Assembly: GCA_025357945.1 (NCBI GenBank)
Contig: JANYLJ010000056.1
Coordinates: 1 to 60,645, forward strand
Direction: 5' to 3'
From: Gemmatimonadota bacterium
GTDB lineage: Bacteria; Gemmatimonadota; Gemmatimonadetes; Gemmatimonadales; GWC2-71-9
DNA: 60,645 bases
Made by a program: the position numbers and the translations under genes. Shown here piece by piece: positions 10,188 through 25,327 of this stretch (positions within the stretch are counted from its first letter, which is position 1; every line of letters starts with the position of its first letter). Under the pieces are notes generated by a model. It had not been told where the DNA came from. It saw only the letters and a list, made by a program, of their open reading frames with translations, and ran no database searches.

Positions 10188-10260
10188 ACTCCGTCATGCA
10201 CAGCGCACGAATCTCGGCGGTCCAGCAACTCCGGCGCGCCACTCTTATCAGGAGATGCCA

Positions 10261-10803
10261 ATGGCCTTCATTGAATACCGCAGTCCCGAAAACATCCCGC
10301 CGGTGCACCGGGTACCGGACGGCGACAACATTCTGCGCATCCATGGTGTCCATCCGGAGGCGCTGTCGCTCCATTATGCGCTGTACCGGGAACTGATGTA
10401 TGGCGCCAGTCCGCTGAGCCGCGTGCAGCGTGAGATGATCGCCGTGACAGTGTCACGGGTGAATCGCTGCCGCTATTGTCTCCTGCATCACGGTGGCAAC
10501 CTCCGCGCACAGCTCAGGGCGGAGGGCGCCGGTGAGGGCGAAGCGCAGGCGCTCTTCAATGCCCTCGCCGAGGATCACCGCACCGCTGACGTCAGCCCAC
10601 CCGACCTCGCAATGCTTCACTACGCCGCCAAGGTGGCCGGCCTGCCATCGGAGATCACCGACGCCGACGTCCTGGCCCTGCGTACGGTAGGGTTCGACGA
10701 CCGGGGCGTCCACGACATCTGCGCGATTGCGAGCTATTTCGCATTCGTCAATCGGATCGCGCTGGGGCTAGGTGTGGAGCTCGAAGCGCGGTTTCTGCCG
10801 TAG
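10261..10803 (+). CDS. AhpD-like peroxidase-related protein
   Basis: 180 residues. Of two close ATGs, that at 10261 has AGGAG six bases upstream, whereas the ATG at 10255 touches it, so 10261 is preferred. Core motif CRYCLLHHGG gives the redox pair Cys70/Cys73 followed by the His of the proton relay. Flanking helices (LSRVQREMIAVTVSRVN, VHDICAIASYFAFVNRIALGLGV) fit the carboxymuconolactone decarboxylase fold of the peroxidase-related subfamily. It probably reduces organic peroxides or acts as a thiol-dependent antioxidant. It is a second, diverged AhpD-like protein and again lies beside a sigma/anti-sigma pair. Confidence 0.85.
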   Translation: MAFIEYRSPENIPPVHRVPDGDNILRIHGVHPEALSLHYALYRELMYGASPLSRVQREMIAVTVSRVNRCRYCLLHHGGNLRAQLRAEGAGEGEAQALFNALAEDHRTADVSPPDLAMLHYAAKVAGLPSEITDADVLALRTVGFDDRGVHDICAIASYFAFVNRIALGLGVELEARFLP

Positions 10804-13945: not shown

Positions 13946-14614
13946 TTGTCCACCAGGTGTTGCGTGAGCCACTGTACGGCGGGTGGTATGGCGTGTGCGT
14001 TCGTTCCGATCGTCACCGCGCGCATCGAGAACCTTGGGGTACTCGCGCCGGTCGCGTTCATTCTCGTCTACGCCATGGCCGATGTTGCCTTCGTCCCAGG
14101 GAGCCTGCTCACGCTCACGGCGGGGGCACTCTTCGGCCCGGCTGTCGGGACGACGGTGGCAATGGTCGGTGCGACGCTCGGTGCGTCGGCGGCCTTCCTG
14201 CTGGCGCGATACGTCATTCGGCGCAGGGTGGAGCATTGGATCCACGCATCGCCCAGACTGGCGGCGCTCGATGCCGCCGTGGCGAACGAGGGCCGCAAGA
14301 TCGTCTTCCTCATGCGCCTGGTGCCGTTGATTCCATTCAACGCGCTCAACTACGCGCTGGGCGTCACCCGAGTCCGTTTCGTCGACTACCTCGTCGCATC
14401 GATCGGGATGCTGCCGGGCGCGCTGCTGTATTCCTACTACGGGCACGTCGCAGGTGACGCGGCGCGGTTAGCGGCGGGGGTTGCTCCGCCACGAGGCACC
14501 GGGTACTACGTCCTGCTGGTTGGCGGACTCCTCGCCACGATCGCGCTCACTCTCGTGCTGACCCGCGCTGCGCGCCACGCGCTCTCGGCCACCACATCGA
14601 TCGCTGCCGAATGA
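13946..14614 (+). CDS. TVP38/TMEM64 (DedA-like) membrane protein
   Basis: Up to 222 residues. The VTT-domain core is clear: VAFVPGSLLTLTAGALFG, LGASAAFLLARYVIRR, then RLVPLIPFNALNYALG and SIGMLPGALLYSYYGHVAG, with a final C-terminal helix. These proteins are lipid scramblase or transporter-like and often sit beside flavin reductases. The start is unsure: TTG 13946 opens the longest frame, but the first ATG (13988) leaves no room for the usual N-terminal helix and no ribosome site is visible at either. Its stop overlaps the ATG of the reductase gene (ATGA at 14611), so they are coupled. Confidence 0.82.
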   Translation: MSTRCCVSHCTAGGMACAFVPIVTARIENLGVLAPVAFILVYAMADVAFVPGSLLTLTAGALFGPAVGTTVAMVGATLGASAAFLLARYVIRRRVEHWIHASPRLAALDAAVANEGRKIVFLMRLVPLIPFNALNYALGVTRVRFVDYLVASIGMLPGALLYSYYGHVAGDAARLAAGVAPPRGTGYYVLLVGGLLATIALTLVLTRAARHALSATTSIAAE

Positions 14615-16131
14615 CCACGCTGCCGCACTCCGCCGCTCCGTTGGATGAGAACGACCGGCGGCTACTCGAGCAGGTTCATCCACCCGGCTGGATCGACCCC
14701 AAAGCGAAGGACCGATACGACCTGGTAGTTCTCGGCGCTGGCACCGGCGGATTGGTGAGCGCGGCCGGGGCGGCCGGTCTGGGGGCGCGAGTGGCCCTGG
14801 TGGAGGAGAACCGGATGGGTGGCGATTGCCTGAACGTCGGCTGCGTCCCGTCGAAGGCCCTCATTGCCGCAGCACGTTCGTGGGAAGCCGCACGTGATTC
14901 CGTCAAATACGGCGGCCCACCGGTTTCGGGAGACGGCGACTTCGGCGCGGTGATGGCCCGTTTGCGCCGGTTGCGCGCGGATCTAAGTACCGTCGACGGC
15001 GCGCCACGTTTCACTCAGCTGGGAGTTGACGTCTTTTTCGGCCGGGGGCGCTTCACGGCGAACAATCGCGTCGAGGTGAACGGGCAAACGCTCCATTTCC
15101 GGCGCGCAGTCATCGCGACCGGGGCGCGGCCGGTTGCACCGCCGATTCCGGGTCTGGCCGAAACAGGCTACCTGACCAATGAAACCGTCTTCTCACTTGC
15201 GCAACTGCCGACGCGGCTGGCCGTGATCGGTGCGGGCCCCATCGGCTGCGAGTTAGCGCAGGCGTTCGCCCGCTTCGGCAGTCAGGTGACGGTACTCGAT
15301 CAGTCGCCTCGCATTCTCCCGCGGGAGGACTCCGAGGCCGCGGCGGTTGTGCACGAGGCGCTCGTATCCGCGGGGGTGGTTCTCAATCTGGCGACTCGCA
15401 TCGAGCGCGTAGCGCGGGAGCATGGGGGCACGACGGTGCACATCCTCCGCGACGACGGACGCCGGTTGATCATCACGTGCGACCAACTGCTGGTGGCCAC
15501 TGGACGGGTGCCCAACGTAACAGACCTTGGTCTGGCACAGGCTGGCGTGACGTTCGATCATGCGGGCGTCGCCGTCGACAGCCGACTTCGCACCACCAAC
15601 GCCCGCATCTTCGCCGTGGGCGATGTCTGCTCGCCGCAGCAATTCACCCACGCCGCTGACTTCCAGGCGCGACTGGTCATCGCCAATGCGCTGTTCTTCG
15701 GCCGAGGGCGACACCCAAGCCTGGTGTATCCACGATGTACGTACACCAGCCCTGAGCTCGCCCACGTGGGAATCACGCCAGAGGAAGCGGCACGCCAGGG
15801 GATTCCTCTCGACACGATCACCATCCCGTTTGCCGAGGTCGATCGTGCCGTGCTCGACGGCCCGACCGAAGGGTTCCTGCGCGTCCTTCTCAAGCGCGGG
15901 ACCGATCGGATCCTGGGCATCACCATCGTCGGTGACCACGCCGGAGAGTTGATCGCGGAGGGGTCGGTTGCGGTGACGAATTCCCTGGGCCTGTCCGCGC
16001 TGGGGCGCACCATCCATCCGTATCCAACCCGAAGCGAAGCCTACCGGAAGGCGGCCGATGCGTGGCGGCGTCGCAAACTCACCGCGACGGTTCGGCGGCT
16101 GCTCTCGTTGTGGTTCCGGCTGCTTCGGTAA
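14611..16131 (+). CDS. MerA-like FAD/NAD(P) disulfide oxidoreductase
   Basis: 506 residues. FAD-binding VVLGAGTGGLVSAAGAAGLG at about 40-58, redox CLNVGC (Cys73, Cys78), NAD-binding AVIGAGPIGCELAQAFARFG at about 207, second FAD motif FAVGDVC, and a dimerisation domain with HPYPTRSEAYRKA. A 37-residue N-terminal extension precedes the FAD domain. It lacks the MerP-like N-terminal domain and the C-terminal Cys pair of mercuric reductase, so mercury is unlikely as substrate. It is coupled to the TVP38 gene. Members of this branch are usually annotated mercuric reductase by homology only. A deleted relative remains at 9915-10187. Confidence 0.88.
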   Translation: MTTLPHSAAPLDENDRRLLEQVHPPGWIDPKAKDRYDLVVLGAGTGGLVSAAGAAGLGARVALVEENRMGGDCLNVGCVPSKALIAAARSWEAARDSVKYGGPPVSGDGDFGAVMARLRRLRADLSTVDGAPRFTQLGVDVFFGRGRFTANNRVEVNGQTLHFRRAVIATGARPVAPPIPGLAETGYLTNETVFSLAQLPTRLAVIGAGPIGCELAQAFARFGSQVTVLDQSPRILPREDSEAAAVVHEALVSAGVVLNLATRIERVAREHGGTTVHILRDDGRRLIITCDQLLVATGRVPNVTDLGLAQAGVTFDHAGVAVDSRLRTTNARIFAVGDVCSPQQFTHAADFQARLVIANALFFGRGRHPSLVYPRCTYTSPELAHVGITPEEAARQGIPLDTITIPFAEVDRAVLDGPTEGFLRVLLKRGTDRILGITIVGDHAGELIAEGSVAVTNSLGLSALGRTIHPYPTRSEAYRKAADAWRRRKLTATVRRLLSLWFRLLR

Positions 16132-16248: not shown

Positions 16249-18726
16249 ATGATGCTGGCCGAACGAACTCCCCTGCACCTGCCCGAACTTGATCTCTTCG
16301 CGGACCAGGGTCTCACCTACTTCGTGCAAGGTGCCGCCCCGAACTGGGTCGCGGTGGAGCCCGCGGGGCGCGAACTGCTCCGGGAAATCCAACGGGCCAA
16401 CGGCCGGTTGACCGCGGGTGATCTCACCGCGGGGTACTCCGCTGCAACCGGACTCGACGGGGCGAAGGCTCGACTGCATGTCCACGCCTTCTTGCAGGCG
16501 CTCGACCGGGCCAACCTCCTCGCTGACCAAGCATTTCCGACGCCGACCTACCCGGGACGGTTGGCGCTGATCCAACCCGAAGGACTGCAGGAGCTCTGGC
16601 TCCAGATCAACAACAACTGCAACCTCTCCTGCAGCCATTGCCTGGTCGGCTCGGGACCGGGCAAGGAACCTGGCCTGCCGCTCGAGAAACTCGTCGCAAT
16701 CGTGGATCGGGCCGTGGAGCTTGGCTTGGAGCGCCTCTATATCACCGGAGGGGAGCCCTTTGTGAGGCGGGACATCTTCGCGCTGCTGAGGCATGCAACC
16801 GAGGAGAAGGGGCTTGAGGCGATCGTCCTCACCAACGCCACCGTCTTTCAGGGCCCCGTTCGCACCGGCATCGCCCAACTCGATCGCTCAAAGGTTCGCT
16901 TCCAGGTCTCGATCGACGGCGCCCACCCCGCGACGAACGATCCGATTCGCGGTCACGGCACCTTTGAGCGTGCCCTCGACGGCGCGCGTTTTCTCGCCGA
17001 AACGGGCTTCGATGTCTCCCTGACCACCGTCACGACAAAGGACAACCTGGCGGAGCTGGCTGAGATCCCCGAGTTAGTGCGATCGGTGGGGGCGCGGAGT
17101 CAGCACCTCATGTGGGCCCACAAGCGCGGCCGCGCGGCAACGAGCCTGAACGGGTTCTTCCCCGATAGTTCGGCCATCGTCGCGGCCGTCATGCAAACAG
17201 CCGACGCCGCCGAGCGCGCAGGCACCGTGCTCGACAACCTGGAGACGGTCAAGCGCCGAGTGAATGGCGTCCCGGGTCTCAAGTACGATCTGGGCAACGG
17301 CGGCTGGGATTCGTTGTGTGTGAACTTCGACGGGCGCGTGTACCCCACACCGGCGCTCGCAAACGAGCCCGCGCTTCTCTGCGGCGACGCCAATCAGGAA
17401 GACTTGGCCGACATCCTCGCCGGCTCGACGATCGTACGCCAACTGCGTGAGGCGACGGTTGCCCGCAAGCCCTCCATGCGGGATGATCCGTTCCGGTTCC
17501 TGACTGGCGGTGGCGATTGGGAACACGCGTGGACGTTCTCCGGCGGCGACCCGCTTGCACCGGATCCGTACTACTCCATTCAACTTGCGTTGGTGCGCCG
17601 GGTCATGACCACGCTCGGCCAGGAGAAGGCCGCGCGGCGCAATCGCCGCTCCGGATACGATGCGCCCGTCGTGCTGCATGCGATGGGTGAAGGGGCGATC
17701 GCCTGTGGCACCGCCGACGGACGGCTCGCCGAACAGCCGGTGCTCACCCTCCACTCCAACTGCGTGCTCTCATTCGACGTCGACCGACCGCGGGCCAAGG
17801 TCCGGGAGTATTACCACGCCGCCGCCGAGAAACCGCAGGCCGATCTCTGCTGTCCTACCCGGTATGACGACAACCTCGTCTCCCACATTCCTCGAGAGGT
17901 GATCGACCGATTCTACGGTTGCGGCTCGCCGATCGCACTGGCTGGGATCACGGCAGGTGAACGGGTCGTCGACCTCGGGTCCGGGGCTGGTATTGACGTA
18001 TTCATCGCCGCGAAACTCACCGGCCGGGGCGGCTGTGCGATCGGGGTCGATATGACCGACGCGATGCTGGCTGTTGCTGAGGCCAATCGCCCCGTGGTCG
18101 CAACCGCACTCGGCTATGACGTAGTTGAGTTCCGCAAGGGCTATCTGGAGCACATTCCGATCGAGGATCGCTCGGTCGATCTCGTCACTTCCAATTGCGT
18201 GATTAACCTCTCCCCTGACAAGCCGCGGGTCTTCGAGGAGACCTGGCGGATTCTCAAGGATCACGGTCGGATCGTTCTTTCCGATATCGTGAGTGAGCGC
18301 GAGGTACCGCCGCACCTCAAGGTCAACCCGGAGCTCTGGGGAGAGTGCCTGGTTGGCGCACTGACCGAAGCGGAGTTGCTCTCTCAGCTTGAGCGCGCGG
18401 GATTCTACGGGCTCACGATCCTCCGCAAGAGTTATTGGAAGGACGTTGAGGGTTATCCGTTCTTCTCCGTGACGGTGCGCGGCTACAAGTACCAGAAGAG
18501 CGCCGGGTGTGTGTACCAGGGACATCAAGCGATCTACCTCGGACCCGGGAAGGCGTTTCTCGACGAAGAAGGCCACCTCTTTCCGCGCAACGAGCCAATC
18601 GAAATCTGCACCGATTCCCTGGCCAAGCTCCAACGCGCGCCGTACGACGCGATGTTCGCGGTACTGGAGCCCGGCGAGGCACGAGCGGGGTACTCCTGCT
18701 GCGAGCCGGATGCCGCATGCTGCTGA
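16249..18726 (+). CDS. Radical SAM/SPASM-like - ArsM arsenite methyltransferase fusion
   Basis: 825 residues. About 10-95 resembles a PqqD-like peptide or substrate-binding domain. The radical SAM domain follows (110-300) with the 4Fe-4S motif CNLSCSHC (Cys124, 128, 131) and YITGGEPF. A SPASM-like region has Cys357, 378, 486 and 505. From about 519 comes a complete As(III) S-adenosylmethionine methyltransferase: LCCPTRYD (Cys534/535), FYGCGSP (Cys558), SAM motif VDLGSGAGID, SNCVINLSPDK (Cys650), WGECLVGAL (Cys700), and a Cys tail SCCEPDAACC like that of human AS3MT. All four AS3MT cysteines have a counterpart. It probably methylates arsenite and adds an adenosyl-derived group, as separate ArsM and ArsS do. 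The radical SAM half lacks an evident ArsS-type DUF3641 tail. Confidence 0.88.
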   Translation: MMLAERTPLHLPELDLFADQGLTYFVQGAAPNWVAVEPAGRELLREIQRANGRLTAGDLTAGYSAATGLDGAKARLHVHAFLQALDRANLLADQAFPTPTYPGRLALIQPEGLQELWLQINNNCNLSCSHCLVGSGPGKEPGLPLEKLVAIVDRAVELGLERLYITGGEPFVRRDIFALLRHATEEKGLEAIVLTNATVFQGPVRTGIAQLDRSKVRFQVSIDGAHPATNDPIRGHGTFERALDGARFLAETGFDVSLTTVTTKDNLAELAEIPELVRSVGARSQHLMWAHKRGRAATSLNGFFPDSSAIVAAVMQTADAAERAGTVLDNLETVKRRVNGVPGLKYDLGNGGWDSLCVNFDGRVYPTPALANEPALLCGDANQEDLADILAGSTIVRQLREATVARKPSMRDDPFRFLTGGGDWEHAWTFSGGDPLAPDPYYSIQLALVRRVMTTLGQEKAARRNRRSGYDAPVVLHAMGEGAIACGTADGRLAEQPVLTLHSNCVLSFDVDRPRAKVREYYHAAAEKPQADLCCPTRYDDNLVSHIPREVIDRFYGCGSPIALAGITAGERVVDLGSGAGIDVFIAAKLTGRGGCAIGVDMTDAMLAVAEANRPVVATALGYDVVEFRKGYLEHIPIEDRSVDLVTSNCVINLSPDKPRVFEETWRILKDHGRIVLSDIVSEREVPPHLKVNPELWGECLVGALTEAELLSQLERAGFYGLTILRKSYWKDVEGYPFFSVTVRGYKYQKSAGCVYQGHQAIYLGPGKAFLDEEGHLFPRNEPIEICTDSLAKLQRAPYDAMFAVLEPGEARAGYSCCEPDAACC

Positions 18727-19808
18727 CAGCACTCCTCCTCATCGCCCTGACATTGGGCGTCGCGTTCGCCAACGGGGCAAACGATGTCTCGAAGGGTATC
18801 GCGACACTGGTCGGGGCGGGCCTCGCCGGGGAGCGTCGCGCCATTCTCTGGGGGACCGTCTGGACCGTGCTCGGCGTGTCTGTCGCGCTGGTACTCGCGC
18901 ACGGGCTCGTCGCGACGTTCTCGGGGCGCGGCATTCTCGTCGCGCCGCCGGCGGGGCTGATCTGGCCCGCGTCGGTCGCGGTCGGTGTCATCGGCTGGCT
19001 CGTGGTTGCTACCCGGGCGGGCCTGCCGGTCTCCACCACTCACGCGCTCGTCGGGGCGATCCTCGGTGCCGGGATGGTGGCCGGTGGACCCACCGGTGTC
19101 TTGTGGACCGGAGTACTCGCCAAGGTCGGGCTACCGCTGTTCGCCTCGCCACTACTCTCTCTCGCGCTCGTGTTCGGCCTGCTTCCGACGGCCGCCGCCG
19201 CGTTTCGTCGCCTCGCCACGTACTGTGTCTGTCTCGAGCAGCACGAGGTGGTGCTCATCCCGTTGGGCTTCAACGAGGCGGTGATCGCTGGACGCGAGCT
19301 CCGCGTCGTGGCTGCCGCCGACTGTCCGCCGCGGGTCCTCACGCGGGTGAATGCGCTGGATTCGATGCACTGGCTCACGGCTGGCTTCACGAGCTTCGCC
19401 CGCGGGTTGAACGATTCACCCAAGATTCTTGCCCTCGGATTGGTCGCCGGCCCTACGGTGGGCGTCGGGCCCGGTGCTCTCCTCGCGCTGGTGGCGGTGG
19501 CGATGGGTGCAGGCAGCGTGTACGCGGGACGCCGGGTCACCGGGACGCTCGCCACCAAGGTCACCGCGATGTCCGCCCCCGAGGCGCTGACGGCAAACGC
19601 CGTGACCGCAGGCCTGGTCGGCATCGCGTCCAACTTCGGCTGGCCGGTGTCCACGACGCACGTCTCGGCCGGCACCGTCATCGCGGTCGGAATGCACCGT
19701 CGGGAACTGCAGTGGAAACTCGTTCGGGAGATGGCCGTCGCCTGGCTGGTGACGGTACCAGTCGCCGCCCTGCTGGCAGGCGCCGCGTACGCGGTGGCGG
19801 GCCGATGA
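18717..19808 (+). CDS. PiT-family inorganic phosphate transporter
   Basis: 363 residues from the ATG at 18717, which overlaps the end of the ArsM fusion by ten bases. It holds both PiT signatures: FANGANDVSKGIATLVGAG near the start and RGLNDSPKILALGLV in the second half, plus VSTTHALVGAILG and VSTTHVSAGTVI. About ten membrane helices are predicted by eye. PiT carriers import phosphate as metal-phosphate with a proton and admit arsenate. Its tight coupling to arsenic methylation and glycosyltransferase genes suggests a role in supplying arsenate or balancing phosphate, or export of a product; none of these is shown by sequence. Confidence 0.9.
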   Translation: MLLTALLLIALTLGVAFANGANDVSKGIATLVGAGLAGERRAILWGTVWTVLGVSVALVLAHGLVATFSGRGILVAPPAGLIWPASVAVGVIGWLVVATRAGLPVSTTHALVGAILGAGMVAGGPTGVLWTGVLAKVGLPLFASPLLSLALVFGLLPTAAAAFRRLATYCVCLEQHEVVLIPLGFNEAVIAGRELRVVAAADCPPRVLTRVNALDSMHWLTAGFTSFARGLNDSPKILALGLVAGPTVGVGPGALLALVAVAMGAGSVYAGRRVTGTLATKVTAMSAPEALTANAVTAGLVGIASNFGWPVSTTHVSAGTVIAVGMHRRELQWKLVREMAVAWLVTVPVAALLAGAAYAVAGR

Positions 19809-20503
19809 GGCTCTCCGTCGTGATCCCAACCATCGACGAAGCTGCGGCGCTTCCGGCACTTCTCGATGACCTGCGCGAACTGAAGCCGCTGTTCGGTGAA
19901 ATCGTGATCGCTGACGCCGGCTCGTCCGACGGAACCGTCGACCTTGCCCGGGCCGCAGGCGCCCGCATCGTCCCGGCCCCGCGGGGACGCGCGCATCAGT
20001 TGAATGCTGGCGCGCAGTATTCTCGGGGTGACTGGTTGCTGTTCCTGCACGCCGACTCCCGGATCGACACAAACGCGTGCGCCGCGATTCGAGATGCACT
20101 CGCTGTAGTTCCGCCAGTGGACGCTGCCGTCTTCCGATTCGCGATCGACCTGCCGCCGGTGTGGAAGCGCATGATCGAGGCCGGGCAGGCGATCCGCGAA
20201 TCACTCTTCGGCCTGGCGTATGGGGATCAGGGACTGCTCATCCGCCGCGAGTGCTTCGACGCAGTCGGGGGGTACCCGGAATTGCCGCTCATGGAAGACG
20301 TCGAAATGATCCGTCGTCTGCGGCGGCGCTACGGCGTCGCCCGGCTCCCCGCCGTGGTGCTGACGTCGGGACGACGATACCGGCAGCGCGGGATCGTCCG
20401 CACCTGGATTTCGCATACTCTGCTCATCACCCTTTTCGCGGCCGGCGTTTCCCCGGCACGCCTGGCCCGCTGGCGCGATGGCACAACCGCTCTCGCGCGC
20501 TGA
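19805..20503 (+). CDS. TIGR04283-type arsenosugar glycosyltransferase (GT2)
   Basis: 232 residues. GT-A nucleotide-sugar fold: LSVVIPTIDEAAALPALLDDL, VIADAGSSDGTVDLARAAGA, RAHQLNAGAQYSRGDWLLFLHADS (DXD-equivalent HADS), and YGDQGLLIRRECFDAVGGYPELPLMEDVEMIRRL. This is the pattern of the TIGR04283 family, which is named for arsenosugar biosynthesis on the basis of gene context. Its ATG overlaps the PiT stop (ATGA). It should transfer a sugar in the cytosol, or at the membrane given the hydrophobic ISHTLLITLFAAGV segment at the end. Substrate specificity is inferred only from the family and context. Confidence 0.88.
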   Translation: MRLSVVIPTIDEAAALPALLDDLRELKPLFGEIVIADAGSSDGTVDLARAAGARIVPAPRGRAHQLNAGAQYSRGDWLLFLHADSRIDTNACAAIRDALAVVPPVDAAVFRFAIDLPPVWKRMIEAGQAIRESLFGLAYGDQGLLIRRECFDAVGGYPELPLMEDVEMIRRLRRRYGVARLPAVVLTSGRRYRQRGIVRTWISHTLLITLFAAGVSPARLARWRDGTTALAR

Positions 20504-21128
20504 CGTTCTCGGCGTCTTCGTCAAGGTTCCGACGCCGGGTCACGTGAAGACCAGGTTGGCTCAGACCGTCGGTGCCGACCACGCTGCCGCCCTTTACAGA
20601 TTTATCGGGAGGCAGGTGGTGGCCCAATGTGTGGACCCGGGCGGGCACCGCACCGCCATCTGGTTCGCCCCCTCGGGCGGCGAAGCGGGGACACGAGCCT
20701 GGCTGGAGTGGCTGGGGGTTGACGACTTCCTCTCTCAACCTGACGGTGGGCTCGGTGTACGGCTCACCGCGACGTTCGATCATCACTTCGCCCACGGAGC
20801 GCGCCGAGTCGTCGTGATCGGCTCCGACTGTCCTGACGTCGGACGAGAGCTGGTACATCGCGCCTTCGCCGCGCTCGAGCAGGACGATCTGGTGGTCGGG
20901 CCAGCGGTTGACGGTGGCTTCTACCTGCTCGGGCTCAATTCCCCGGCGCCCGAACTCTTTCGCGATATCGAGTGGTCCACTGACGCCGTCTACCGCCAGA
21001 CGATGACGAATGCTGGACGCCTCGGCCTTTCCATGGCCGTGCTACCCGAGCTTCAGGACGTCGACACGGTCGATGACGCCCGCGCGCTTGGACTCCTACC
21101 GCCCGTTTCCCGCGGACAGTTGGAATAG
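20478..21128 (+). CDS. TIGR04282-type (DUF2064) glycosyltransferase-like protein
   Basis: 216 residues, starting 26 bases before the end of the GT2 gene. VFVKVPTPGHVKTRLAQTVG at the start, IGSDCPDVGRELVHRAFAALEQDDLVVGPAVDGGFYLLGL in the centre, and VDTVDDARALG at the end define the DUF2064/TIGR04282 family, a nucleotidyl- or glycosyl-transferase-like GT-A fold. TIGR04282 and TIGR04283 proteins are regular partners in arsenosugar loci. No signal peptide. It is the last gene of the run: the next gene, merR, starts 135 bases later behind its own promoter. Confidence 0.88.
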   Translation: MAQPLSRADVLGVFVKVPTPGHVKTRLAQTVGADHAAALYRFIGRQVVAQCVDPGGHRTAIWFAPSGGEAGTRAWLEWLGVDDFLSQPDGGLGVRLTATFDHHFAHGARRVVVIGSDCPDVGRELVHRAFAALEQDDLVVGPAVDGGFYLLGLNSPAPELFRDIEWSTDAVYRQTMTNAGRLGLSMAVLPELQDVDTVDDARALGLLPPVSRGQLE

Positions 21129-21263: not shown

Positions 21264-21677
21264 ATGCCCTTGACCATCGGCCAAGTCGCGCTGGCGGTCG
21301 ACGTAAATGTCCAGACGGTGCGCTACTACGAGCGCCGCGGTTTGTTGGCGGCGCCACAGCGCACCGTATCGGGGTATCGCCAGTACCCCGAAGACACCAT
21401 CGGTCGGTTGCGGTTCATCAGGCACGCCAAGGGCCTCGGGTTTGCCTTGAGGGAAATTCAGGAGTTGCTCGAGCTGCGGGTCAGCCGTCGAACCGCCTGC
21501 GACGCCGTCGAGCGCAAGACCCGCGAAAAAATCGAGCTGGTCGAACAGAAGATTTACGACCTGCGCCGGATCAACCGGACGCTGGGGCACCTCGCCGCCG
21601 CGTGCGCGGCAAGGCGGCCAACGGACGACTGTCCCATCCTCGGGGCATTGGAGGAGCATGACGAATCCGACAACTAA
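21264..21677 (+). CDS. merR: MerR mercury-responsive regulator
   Basis: 137 residues with AGGAGG ahead of the ATG. The winged-helix start is LTIGQVALAVDVNVQTVRYYERRGLL, followed by a dimerisation helix. The Hg(II)-binding cysteines are Cys79, Cys114 and Cys123. Their spacing (35 and 9 residues) equals that of the Tn501 MerR triad Cys82/117/126, and the DDCPIL motif is also kept. This makes it a true mercury sensor rather than a copper or zinc relative. It overlaps merT by 20 bases and lies downstream of a promoter with a 20-base spacer, so it activates its own operon when mercury binds. Confidence 0.95.
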   Translation: MPLTIGQVALAVDVNVQTVRYYERRGLLAAPQRTVSGYRQYPEDTIGRLRFIRHAKGLGFALREIQELLELRVSRRTACDAVERKTREKIELVEQKIYDLRRINRTLGHLAAACAARRPTDDCPILGALEEHDESDN

Positions 21678-22011
21678 GACCGCGCTCGCCGCCAGCGGTG
21701 GCCTCGCCGCGGCCGTGGCCTCGGCACTCTGCTGTGCGGGACCGCTGATCGCGGTCGCGGTCGGCCTGAGCGGCGCCGGACTGGCCGCGACGTTCGAGCC
21801 GTTGCGGCCCTATTTCGTTGGCGCTACCGTACTCGCCCTCGGCTCCGGGTTCGTGGTCGTTCACCGGGAGGAGCGGAAGGCTTGCGAGCCGGGATCACTG
21901 TGCGCGTCACCGGTCACGCGCCGCCGCCTGAAGCTGGCGCTCTGGATTGCCACGGTCATCGCCGTTCCCCTGGTGACGTTCCCCTGGTGGTCGGCGTTCA
22001 TACTCGGCTAG
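21658..22011 (+). CDS. merT: MerT mercuric ion transporter
   Basis: 117 residues, three membrane helices. A vicinal Cys pair in the first helix (Cys25-Cys26 in SALCCAGPL) and a second, cytosolic pair (Cys76, Cys82 in ACEPGSLCA) are the Hg(II) relay of MerT. It takes Hg(II) from MerP in the periplasm and passes it to MerA in the cytosol. It overlaps merR by 20 bases and is followed ten bases later by merP, with AGGAGG in the gap. Confidence 0.93.
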   Translation: MTNPTTKTALAASGGLAAAVASALCCAGPLIAVAVGLSGAGLAATFEPLRPYFVGATVLALGSGFVVVHREERKACEPGSLCASPVTRRRLKLALWIATVIAVPLVTFPWWSAFILG

Positions 22012-22021
22012 GAGGTTGCAC

Positions 22022-22408
22022 ATGTTGAAAGCACTGAAAGCAGGATGGGTACTCGCGGCAGGAATCGCTGGAACCGCCTTCCTTTGTCCGCTGTGCGGCG
22101 GCGGGGTTGCGGCGGTAGGCGCGCAGAGCATACGGGCAGGCGTTCAGGTCGCGGATTCTGCCACCGTGCGCTTCCATATCACCGGGATGACCTGTGGCAG
22201 CTGCCCCACGACGGCGCGCCTCGCACTGAAGCGGCTGCCGGGTGTTTACCGTGCCACGGTGACGCTGGACGACAGCGTTGGTGTGGTACGCTACGATCCA
22301 CACCAGGTGACGCCTGCCCTGATCGCCGCCCACCTCACGCGACTCACCGGATTTGGTGCGAAGGTCATCGCGGACAGCACCGAAAGGACCGGCCGGCGCC
22401 GGACATGA
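22022..22408 (+). CDS. merP: MerP-like periplasmic HMA-domain mercury carrier
   Basis: 128 residues from the ATG at 22022, preceded by AGGAGG. An N-terminal hydrophobic segment (GWVLAAGIAGTAFLCPLCGGG) carries an extra CPLC pair not found in standard MerP. The HMA domain has GMTCGSCPTTAR near residue 58, then ALKRLPGVYRATVTLDDSVGVVRYDPHQVTP, the usual beta-alpha-beta fold. It should bind Hg(II) outside the inner membrane and hand it to MerT. It is longer than classical MerP (about 91 residues) because of the N-terminal segment and a charged tail. ATGA overlap with merA. Confidence 0.88.
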   Translation: MLKALKAGWVLAAGIAGTAFLCPLCGGGVAAVGAQSIRAGVQVADSATVRFHITGMTCGSCPTTARLALKRLPGVYRATVTLDDSVGVVRYDPHQVTPALIAAHLTRLTGFGAKVIADSTERTGRRRT

Positions 22409-23862
22409 CGATCGCGGACCGCACGGGGCCCGGTGCCCCCATGGTAAACTCCCGAAGCGGCGACGAGTTTGACCTGGCCATTGTCGGCGGCGGGTCGGCG
22501 GGCTTCGCTGCCGCGATCAAGGCGGCAGAGCTCGGTGCGCGGGTCGCGATGGCCGAGGGCGGGACGCTCGGGGGCACCTGCGTGAACGTGGGCTGCGTTC
22601 CGTCGAAGACCTTGATCCGCGCGGCCGAGGCGCAGCACCGCCGGGTGAACCACGGATTCAACGGTATCGCCGCGACCGATGGTCCGCCCGACTGGAGCGC
22701 CGTGCGGGCCCAGAAGGACGCGCTTGTGTCGGACCTGCGGCACGCCAAGTACTGGAACGTGTTGCAGTCCTACGAGGCGATCTCGCTGTTCGAACAGCGC
22801 GCCGAGATCCTCTCCGGCAACGTCGTACGGTTGGCCGATGGCCGCACGATCACCGCCGGCAAGATCCTCATTACCACGGGTGCGTCCTCCTGGCCTGCGC
22901 CGATCCCGGGATTGACCGAAGCGGGCTACCTCGACAACGTGACGGCGATGGCGCTCGAGCGGCTCCCCGACTCGATGATCGTGATCGGCGCGAGCGCGGT
23001 GGGTCTCGAGCTGGCCCAGATGTTCGCGCGTCTGGGGGTCAGGGTTACCGTGCTCGAAGCCCTTGCCACGGTGGTACCCGCCGAGGATCCGGAAATCGGG
23101 AATGCGCTCGGCGACTACCTGCGAGGCGAAGGCCTTGGTGTACGGACCGGCGTGCGGATCGAGCGCGTCAGTCGTACGGCAGCGGGGTACACCGCGTCGT
23201 TCAGCGACGATGGCCGTACCGAGGCGGTTCGCGCTGAGCAACTTCTCGTCGCGACCGGGCGCCGACCCAATACGGCGGGACTGGGATTGGACGCGCTCGG
23301 TGTCGCGCTTGGTGGAAAGGGCGAGATACAGGTCAACGAGTTCCTTGAGACATCCCATCCGGGTGTTTATGCGGCAGGGGACGTGATCGGCGATCCGATG
23401 CTTGTGTACGTCGCCGCGTACGGCGGCACGCTCGCGGCCGAGAACGCGCTGGCGGGCAACCTGCGCCGCTTCGACCTCACGGCGTTGTCGCAGGTCACCT
23501 TCACCGACCCGGCCGTCGCCTCGGTCGGGCTGACCGCGGACCAGGCTCAGGCGCAGGGGATTGAACCCCTCGCGACCAAGCTCGCCATGGAACACGTGCC
23601 GCGCTCGTTGGCGGCGCGCGATACGCGTGGGTTCGTCAAACTCATCGCCAATGCCGCAACCCGGAAAATCGTCGGCGCGCACATCCTCGCCGGGGAGGCG
23701 GGCGAGATGATCGCGGAACCGGCCTTGGCGATCAAGTACGGGCTGACGATCGAGGACCTGACCGCGACCTTCCACCCGTACCTGACCCTGTCAGAGGGGA
23801 TCAAGCTCGCCGCGCTGTCGTTCACGAAAGACGTGGCGAAGCTCTCGTGCTGCGCGGTGTAA
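22405..23862 (+). CDS. merA: MerA mercuric reductase
   Basis: 485 residues. FAD motif AIVGGGSAGFAAAIKAAELG, redox CVNVGC (Cys59, Cys64), NADPH motif VIGASAVGLELAQMFARLG, second FAD motif YAAGDVIG, and the decisive C-terminal vicinal pair LSCCAV (Cys482, Cys483) that delivers Hg(II) to the active site. It reduces Hg(II) to volatile Hg(0) with NADPH. The N-terminal MerP-like domain of Gram-negative MerA is absent. It overlaps merP by four bases. It is only distantly related to the other flavin reductase in the window (14611-16131), which lacks the Cys tail. Confidence 0.96.
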   Translation: MTIADRTGPGAPMVNSRSGDEFDLAIVGGGSAGFAAAIKAAELGARVAMAEGGTLGGTCVNVGCVPSKTLIRAAEAQHRRVNHGFNGIAATDGPPDWSAVRAQKDALVSDLRHAKYWNVLQSYEAISLFEQRAEILSGNVVRLADGRTITAGKILITTGASSWPAPIPGLTEAGYLDNVTAMALERLPDSMIVIGASAVGLELAQMFARLGVRVTVLEALATVVPAEDPEIGNALGDYLRGEGLGVRTGVRIERVSRTAAGYTASFSDDGRTEAVRAEQLLVATGRRPNTAGLGLDALGVALGGKGEIQVNEFLETSHPGVYAAGDVIGDPMLVYVAAYGGTLAAENALAGNLRRFDLTALSQVTFTDPAVASVGLTADQAQAQGIEPLATKLAMEHVPRSLAARDTRGFVKLIANAATRKIVGAHILAGEAGEMIAEPALAIKYGLTIEDLTATFHPYLTLSEGIKLAALSFTKDVAKLSCCAV

Positions 23863-23951
23863 GACTGCGGTCGGTAGTCGGTTTTTCGCGCAAGTCCGCC
23901 GGCCCCTGCCCAAACGCCACGACGGACCAACAGAGGAGGCGAGATCCCATT

Positions 23952-24557
23952 GTGAAGGAGTATTCCCGCCTCGCTCCGGAGTACGACACGAGGTGGTCGT
24001 TCTACATCGCGGCGACAACGAGCGCGACGTTAGCGCGATTGTCGGTGCCTCCAACCGGGCGGGTGCTCGACGTTGGCTGCGGCACTGGCGCCCTACTGCA
24101 ACAGCTCGCACGCAAATTCCCACAGGCCACGCTGGTTGGCGTGGACCCGGTGCCGGAGATGCTGGCAGTCGCCCGCGGACGAGTGCCGTCGAGCACGGAG
24201 CTCCGCGAGGGGTGGGCTGAGGAACTACCCTTCGAGGACAACGATTTTGACGTCGTCGTGTCGTGCAGCATGTTTCACTACGTCCGGCAGCCGGTCGCCA
24301 CACTTATGGAGTTGAGCCGTGTCCTCCGCCCGGGCGGCGAGCTTATCATAACCGACTGGTGCGGCGATTATCTGGCCTGCCGCGTTTACGATTGGTGGCA
24401 TCGCCTGTTCAGCCCGGCACATGTTAACGTTTACCGCGAGCGGGAGTGCCTCCGATTGCTCAAGGAGGCTGGGCATCCGCGGGCGCAGATTGAACGCTAC
24501 AAGATCAACTGGCTCTGGGGCCTGATGACCGTCAGGGTTACGAAAGATGCAGCCTGA
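23952..24557 (+). CDS. Class I SAM-dependent methyltransferase
   Basis: 201 residues from the GTG at 23952, with AGGAGG about 12 bases upstream; the spacing is loose but no better start is seen. Motifs: RVLDVGCGTGALLQQLAR (SAM binding), LVGVDPVPEMLAVARGR, then LPFEDNDFDVVVSCSMFHYV and LRPGGELIITDW, as in UbiE/Methyltransf_11 proteins. It lacks the Cys set of ArsM. It follows merA by 89 bases in the same direction and may be the last functional gene of the mer operon. Substrate unknown; a lipid, quinone or small-molecule role is more likely than methylation of mercury. Confidence 0.85.
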   Translation: MKEYSRLAPEYDTRWSFYIAATTSATLARLSVPPTGRVLDVGCGTGALLQQLARKFPQATLVGVDPVPEMLAVARGRVPSSTELREGWAEELPFEDNDFDVVVSCSMFHYVRQPVATLMELSRVLRPGGELIITDWCGDYLACRVYDWWHRLFSPAHVNVYRERECLRLLKEAGHPRAQIERYKINWLWGLMTVRVTKDAA

Positions 24558-24680: not shown

Positions 24681-25040
24681 GACCACGCATCCCCTCCGAT
24701 TCGATGGCCACGGCATGACCTGCAGCGGCGGCACGAAGCATCGACACCGAGCGGATGGCGCGCTGAATTCGCCGGTCCAGGAACCACCACGAAAATGACC
24801 ACGACACCCGAAGATGCCCACGCCGGCCACGCGACACCGGGCGGGCAGGCCGCGATGGTCCGCGACATGCGCAACCGTTTCTGGATCTGCTTCATCTTCA
24901 CCGTGCCAATCCTCTTCTACTCACCGATGGGACTCTTCACTCCGCCCCAGCCACCATTTGGCCTGAAACGCAATCTGTGGTTGTTCATCTTCGCGACGCT
25001 CGCGATCGTCTATCCGAGCTGGCCGTTCTTCGTGTCCGCC
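24681..25040 (+). pseudogene. 5' remnant of a metal-translocating P-type ATPase
   Basis: Bases 24681-24771 carry a decayed HMA motif: GHGMTCSG, then after a one-base shift ARSID. From the ATG at 24795 the frame reads HAGHATPGG, MRNRFWICFIFTVPILFYSPMG and NLWLFIFATLAIVYPSWPFF. This is the His-rich leader and first two membrane helices of CopB/ZntA-like P1B ATPases. It stops at about residue 82 where an IS3-family sequence takes over in the same frame. The phosphorylation, ATP-binding and CPX segments, over 500 residues, are missing. The gene was probably part of the metal cluster before the insertion and deletion. Confidence 0.82.
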
Positions 25041-25327
25041 TGGTGCGACGAACACGGCGTGCGACTCCATCACATCCAGCCGGGGAAACCGAACCAGAAC
25101 GCCTTTATCGAGCGCTTCAACCGGACGTACCGCACGGAAGTGCTCGACGCCTGGGTCTTCACCTCGCTGGCGCGGGTACGAGAAGTGACGGAGGAATGGC
25201 TGGAGATGTACAACACGGAGCGGCCGCATGGCAGCCTCGGTGGCGTGCCGCCTCGCACCTGTTTGCCGAGGCTCATCGCGGTGTGACAGTCTAACTATGA
25301 ACTGTGTCCTTGACGGGGAAGCTTACG
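25041..25327 (+). mobile_element. 3' remnant of an IS3-family insertion sequence
   Basis: The frame continues from the ATPase stub as WCDEHGVRLHHIQPGKPNQNAFIERFNRTYR, EVLDAWVFTSLARVREVTEEWLEMYNTERPHGSLGGVPP and stops at 25286. This is the C-terminal quarter of the DDE transposase OrfB of the IS3 family, including the last catalytic Glu in FIERFNRTYR. OrfA, most of OrfB and the left end are absent. The bases after the stop (GAACTGTGTCCTTGACGGGG near 25299-25318) resemble IS3-type right-end repeats, but no matching left end is present. The element is dead. Confidence 0.82.

Follow-up and report, generated by a model that had tools for sequence, protein, structure and literature searches.

Arsenosugars and arsenolipids are major organic forms of arsenic. 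The methyltransferase ArsM acts on trivalent arsenic held by cysteines, and among prokaryotic radical SAM enzymes it is ArsS and ArsL to which C-As bond formation has been ascribed. ArsS adenosylates arsenic (reviewed in PMC12159101) and, according to work cited in PMC8552651, partners ArsM in the opening steps of arsenosugar synthesis. ArsL transfers a 3-amino-3-carboxypropyl group to As(III) (PMC8552651). In arsinothricin biosynthesis this noncanonical radical SAM enzyme and ArsM, encoded as separate proteins in the arsQML cluster, jointly yield an organoarsenical whose C-As bonds are of two kinds (PMC8552651). Proteins joining ArsM to a second domain exist in the form of the fusion selenoproteins ArsM/AhpD (NF041537) and ArsM/DUF2284 (NF041536). 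The protein described here likewise carries ArsM joined to another domain, but its partner is a different one, lies N-terminally, is a radical SAM domain and uses Cys.

The window, by which we mean the whole 60,645-nt stretch of contig JANYLJ010000056.1 analysed from a Gemmatimonadota bacterium, contains a gene whose single frame, free of internal stops, runs from a PqqD/RRE-like domain through a radical SAM domain of SPASM-type fold into a complete ArsM (Table 1). An earlier note on this DNA had placed both halves in one frame of 825 residues and had named residues 505-530 as the stretch where a join might be suspected. The frame was confirmed, every cysteine that the note listed was found at the position given, and the suspected stretch turned out to be among the better conserved parts of the protein, with C505 and C534/C535 present in 69/69 family sequences.

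Table 1. Features of the fusion gene and its same-strand neighbours, in window positions.
Feature	Position	Strand	Basis or remark
VTT-domain (TVP38/DedA-like) membrane protein	13946..14614	+	PF09335 3e-28
MerA/lipoamide-dehydrogenase-like FAD oxidoreductase	14611..16131	+	NF004991 1e-215
Fused radical SAM-ArsM gene	16249..18726	+	825 aa; intact homologues elsewhere
PqqD/RRE-like N-terminal domain (residues ~12-100)	16282..16548	+	PF05402 in relatives; CteB fold match
Radical SAM core (residues ~113-300)	16585..17148	+	PF04055; fold matches
CxxxCxxC motif, Cys124/128/131	16618..16641	+	kept in 68/69
SPASM-type fold (residues ~345-460), full auxiliary cluster missing	17281..17628	+	PF13186; fold match to residue 460
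Lost CX2CX5C block, M410/D413/T419	17476..17505	+	fourth position Y442 at 17572-17574; family alignment
Linker between halves, Cys486 and Cys505	17629..17841	+	Cys486 in 86%, Cys505 in 100% of family
ArsM half (residues ~532-811), C534/C535, C558, C650, C700	17842..18681	+	5evj and 4kw7 matches; fold
Cys-rich C-terminal tail (CC...CC)	18694..18723	+	common in stand-alone ArsM too
PiT-type phosphate/anion permease	18711..19808	+	PF01384 1e-56; 16-bp overlap with end of fusion gene
TIGR04283 'arsenosugar biosynthesis' glycosyltransferase	19805..20503	+	233 bits, cut-off 182
TIGR04282 'arsenosugar biosynthesis' glycosyltransferase (CofC/DUF2064-like)	20478..21128	+	190 bits, cut-off 134

Six other full-length fusions were detected among 395 genomes of Gemmatimonadota, 67-72% identical to the window protein over essentially the whole length, together with one distant full-length fusion (47% identity) and two copies incomplete solely through contig ends (G036, G327). 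When the radical half served as query, ~85,000 species genomes yielded 79 loci, 68 of them full-length fusions (69 with the window's own). Complete frames at these loci always continued into the ArsM half, with a usual total of 820-870 aa; none of the 79 loci had a radical half on its own, and local frame breaks occurred at two of them (L051 and L107). The 69 full-length sequences span ~17 named phyla, although individual assignments may err since the genomes are mostly metagenome bins: Gemmatimonadota, Acidobacteriota, Omnitrophota, Elusimicrobiota, Wallbacteria, Myxococcota, Nitrospirota, Planctomycetota (many of them anammox Scalindua), Thermodesulfobacteriota, Latescibacterota, Zixibacteria, Hydrogenedentota, Eisenbacteria, Lindowbacteria, Armatimonadota, Chloroflexota and the archaeal Hydrothermarchaeota (one sequence). 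Because the same intact fusion recurs across so many phyla, a frameshift or assembly join is ruled out as its source. The fused protein was absent from a plasmid collection in which ArsM alone was found. We conclude that the architecture is real, conserved and unnamed: none of the Pfam and NCBIfam models matched names it, and a search of the open-access literature found no description of it.

Sequence and predicted fold agree on the identity of the C-terminal half. It matched the solved structures 5evj (6e-41) and 4kw7 (2e-35), methyltransferase models of Pfam cover residues 568-717, and residues 532-811 of the predicted model matched solved ArsM/AS3MT entries with Z scores of 24-29. Four conserved cysteines mark the ArsM family, numbered C44, C72, C174 and C224 in CmArsM. 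C558, C650 and C700 align with C72, C174 and C224 of CmArsM (numbered on the aligned chains); in CrArsM (5evj), the counterpart of C534 is the first of the conserved cysteines. C534, C535, C558, C650 and C700 were kept in 69/69 sequences, supporting the earlier proposal of a complete ArsM half with AS3MT-type cysteines. The Cys-rich tail proposed alongside is indeed present, with C824/C825 in 97-99% of sequences, but CC...CC endings are frequent in the phylum's stand-alone ArsMs and the tail is therefore not special. Fold, SAM-binding domain, catalytic cysteines and tail are thus shared with known ArsM/AS3MT enzymes (PRK11873, NF008823; CmArsM, 4fr0/6cx6; CrArsM, 5evj). The differences are the attached radical SAM half, a score of 226 bits (E 5e-67) against the cut-off of 263 of PRK11873, the NCBIfam arsenite methyltransferase model, and a separate tree branch. 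On that score, the fusion's C-terminal half is an ArsM domain outside the curated stand-alone subfamily. A branch with support 81 separated the fused ArsM halves from 21 stand-alone ArsMs of Gemmatimonadota, which is compatible with a single fusion event.

The N-terminal half belongs to the radical SAM superfamily by its CxxxCxxC motif and its barrel (PF04055 on residues 120-274, E 5e-24; predicted fold). An AlphaFold model of the fusion (pLDDT 88.8, pTM 0.88) predicted the folds of both halves with high confidence. In this model the radical half adopts the RRE-radical SAM-SPASM fold of RiPP maturases of the CteB/SkfB type, and residues 12-460 superpose on CteB (5wgg; Z 30.3, 406 residues); anSME, SuiB, PqqE, BlsE, SkfB and TigE were further fold matches. 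That the CteB match begins at residue 12 and that PF05402 (PqqD) matches 27/56 family members (best 1.4e-7) supports the PqqD-like N-terminus described earlier. The SPASM model PF13186 matched 49/56 members and was weak in the window protein (residues 352-400, 0.0043, under the cut-off), and the best NCBIfam models, those of the Rv1681 family, the sactipeptide maturase StsB and the mycofactocin maturase, all scored far below their cut-offs. Domain order and the fold of residues 12-460 are thus those of the RRE-SPASM sactipeptide maturases CteB, SkfB and StsB and of TigE (5wgg, 6efn, 8vpo). Those enzymes act on peptides, whereas the fusion has an ArsM attached and includes a clade without auxiliary-cluster cysteines, and no precursor gene was found for it.

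Membership of the ArsS family was rejected. The radical half reached 60.6 bits against the cut-off of 300 of the ArsS model TIGR04167, over residues 109-256 only, and DUF3641 was unmatched in the window protein, so that the earlier judgement that this half is not ArsS held. ArsS is moreover a separate protein of ~350 aa whose C-terminal cysteines follow a pattern of their own, and the fusion has the extra RRE-like domain. A PDB search with an ArsS query found no sequence relative.

The auxiliary cluster required a revision of the earlier note, which had taken C357, C378, C486 and C505 for SPASM-cluster cysteines. These are conserved to 96%, 67%, 86% and 69/69, respectively, and are the wrong set: the family alignment places the true auxiliary block at C410-x2-C413-x5-C419 ... 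C442, and there the window protein has M, D, T and Y, hence none of the SPASM cysteines. C410, C413 and C419 occurred together in 39/69 sequences and C442 in 37/69, while in 30/69, the window's own included, the block was wholly replaced (D413, mostly with T419 and Y442). In a tree built without the auxiliary-block columns and without the chimeric L126, the loss mapped to a single clade, of 28 sequences and with support 98, and in addition to the divergent L127. Given M/D/T/Y in the window's clade, no full auxiliary cluster is expected there, and it is probable, judging by its residues, that the window enzyme carries the radical SAM cluster without a complete auxiliary one. Directly after the lost block, a GGGDxEH motif is retained, invariant or nearly so; this conservation makes GGGDxEH and C505 candidates for a function common to both branches. 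Clade-wide loss of the SPASM auxiliary block, with the rest of the domain kept, offers a natural test of the cluster's role.

In order to compare gene neighbourhoods, we used loci of at least 9 kb around 61 fusion, 30 ArsS and 20 stand-alone arsM genes; these counts, like the genome counts below, are inflated by related genomes such as those of Scalindua. TIGR04282/83-type glycosyltransferases were found near 34/61 fusion, 10/30 ArsS and 2/20 stand-alone arsM genes. The difference from stand-alone arsM was significant for the fusion (p=0.0003) and not for ArsS (p=0.09), in Fisher tests that ignore relatedness, and ~27/61 fusion loci had no such glycosyltransferase nearby. None of the 20 stand-alone arsM loci had any of the other neighbours. 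VTT proteins accompanied 22/61 fusion and 12/30 ArsS genes, MerA-like reductases 19/61 and 6/30, DUF547 proteins 19/61 and 3/30, and PiT permeases 33/61 and 1/30. Fusion and ArsS, both radical SAM partners of ArsM, therefore have TIGR04283, TIGR04282, VTT, MerA-like reductase and DUF547 neighbours in common.

All ten tested glycosyltransferases, taken from ten fusion loci of different phyla, exceeded the TIGR04283 cut-off, and three of the ten were TIGR04283-TIGR04282 fusions. Since the two are fused in some genomes, they probably act in one pathway; their 'arsenosugar' label is itself presumably an inference by association. One-protein fusions of the pair lie at L062:6354-7616, L069:15034-16287 and L105:5147-6490, in Omnitrophota and Planctomycetota. 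Counted per genome in the phylum, and ignoring relatedness, TIGR04283 was present in 7/10 genomes with the fusion, 30/34 with ArsS and 83/351 with neither, making it common even where both enzymes are missing; within the window's family the corresponding counts, with the same reservation, were 5/8, 7/9 and 2 of at least 62. In marine anammox bacteria, a Scalindua-type cassette lies upstream of the fusion (L084, L091, L094, L104, L109, L120), comprising a thioredoxin-like protein, PiT, a GT2 glycosyltransferase, DUF3179 and a membrane glycosyltransferase. A long ORF at L126:458-3505 combines a TIGR04283-like domain with an N-truncated radical SAM-ArsM fusion; lacking the first ~175 residues, CxxxCxxC included, it was discarded as a triple fusion and is a chimera or a decayed gene.

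The window's fusion locus thus has the ArsS-type neighbourhood (TIGR04283/TIGR04282, VTT, reductase), the same set seen at some ArsS loci (L167, L183, L191), and no ArsS exceeded the cut-off in its genome, which is 99.8% complete. Among Gemmatimonadota, ArsS was found in 34 genomes and the fusion in 10, with an overlap of 0 where ~0.9 would be expected by chance. Among Planctomycetota, 64/199 genomes had ArsS but 0/12 fusion-bearing ones did; chance would give this in ~1% of cases on the assumption, which does not hold, that genomes are independent. Strict mutual exclusion was not upheld, since 4/60 fusion genomes have both and the zero overlap in the phylum is within chance. The fusion may nevertheless tend to stand in for ArsS; the task would then be served by another radical SAM lineage, independent of the first.

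Motif conservation, together with the neighbours that fusion and ArsS have in common, leads us to infer methylation of arsenite followed by formation of a second C-As bond. The reading that we favour, with moderate confidence, is that the fusion is a one-chain organoarsenic synthase combining the roles of ArsM and of a radical SAM enzyme like ArsS. The C-terminal half would methylate arsenite with SAM through Cys534/535, 558, 650 and 700. The arsenical, now trivalent and mono- or dimethylated, would stay bound to cysteines and be handed on, perhaps through the invariant linker Cys505, to the radical half, which would cleave a second SAM and put a second kind of carbon group on arsenic, most likely 5'-deoxyadenosyl as in ArsS. 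The product would be built into an arsenosugar or arsenolipid, aided by the neighbouring TIGR04282/TIGR04283 enzymes. What the sequences show is the fusion, its conservation, the motifs and the gene neighbourhood; both activities, their order, the handover and the group transferred are inferred. The radical half stands closer to peptide maturases of the RRE-SPASM kind than to ArsS, so its substrate may differ. The fusion probably provides a route to organoarsenic compounds, in one chain, that has been overlooked.

If this is true, a scaffold resembling that of peptide maturases was recruited for arsenic, and a widespread single-chain enzyme of uncultured lineages (soil, groundwater, marine and anammox) would greatly widen the range of possible makers of complex organoarsenicals. 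Surveys counting arsM or arsS alone would misread fusion genomes as simple methylators. One clone would permit joint testing of the methylation and radical steps. A bolder proposition, which we regard as doubtful, is that the fusions are unnamed, self-contained organoarsenic synthases of ~17 phyla, independent of ArsS and of peptide-maturase-like origin, which make a C-As bond to a non-adenosyl group and thus organoarsenicals not yet known.

The chemistry of the radical half could differ from that of ArsS. SPASM-type enzymes usually employ the 5'-deoxyadenosyl radical for hydrogen abstraction, and here a sugar, lipid or nucleotide might lose the hydrogen and bond, as a carbon radical and in place of 5'-deoxyadenosyl, to the methylated arsenic, or the half might perform other arsenic-directed chemistry. 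Its position outside the ArsS family agrees with this, as do the sugar-acting BlsE, which is both its best sequence match among solved structures and a fold match, and the membrane and GT2 glycosyltransferases at many fusion loci. Since the gene context overlaps that of ArsS, however, and ArsS is rare in fusion genomes, an ArsS-like reaction by another radical SAM lineage is likelier than unprecedented chemistry, and we rate the latter as unlikely. We consider it still less probable that only methylation matters, in plain arsenic detoxification, with the radical half as a regulator, redox helper or degraded passenger. Adjacency of the cluster to a mercury-resistance operon and loss of the auxiliary cluster in the window's clade could be so read, but CxxxCxxC persists in 68/69 sequences and the core motifs are near-invariant over ~17 phyla, and the ArsS-like neighbours of the fusion are missing at stand-alone ArsM. 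Furthermore, the window's genome also encodes a separate stand-alone ArsM (L050; G000 C10:32777-33331), so that simple methylation does not need the fusion.

The fold raises one other explanation, namely that a ribosomal peptide, which might bind arsenic, is the substrate of the RRE-SPASM half, with ArsM serving arsenic handling. The CteB match includes the leader-binding domain, SkfB, SuiB and TigE match likewise, and the PqqD domain recurs in the family. We searched for conserved small ORFs in the 700-bp flanks of family members and found only the ends of known neighbour genes, which weakens this explanation; in the window itself the gaps are 117 bp upstream and -16 bp downstream. With neighbours of sugar and arsenic type, and the auxiliary cluster lost in part of the family, peptide maturation appears highly improbable, and the one-chain organoarsenic synthase remains the reading we prefer.

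The mercury-resistance operon lies directly after the arsenic cluster (21264-23862) and encodes MerR-like, MerT-like and MerP-like proteins and MerA (549 bits, over the cut-off); a class I methyltransferase (23847-24557) follows it in what forms an arsenic/mercury island. Just downstream of the mer genes is a fragment of an IS-type transposase with an integrase core (rve_3, 24795-25286), hinting that the metal island was once mobile. Upstream of the cluster, positions 10255-10803 encode a peroxidase-related AhpD/CMD protein (TIGR01926, over the cut-off).
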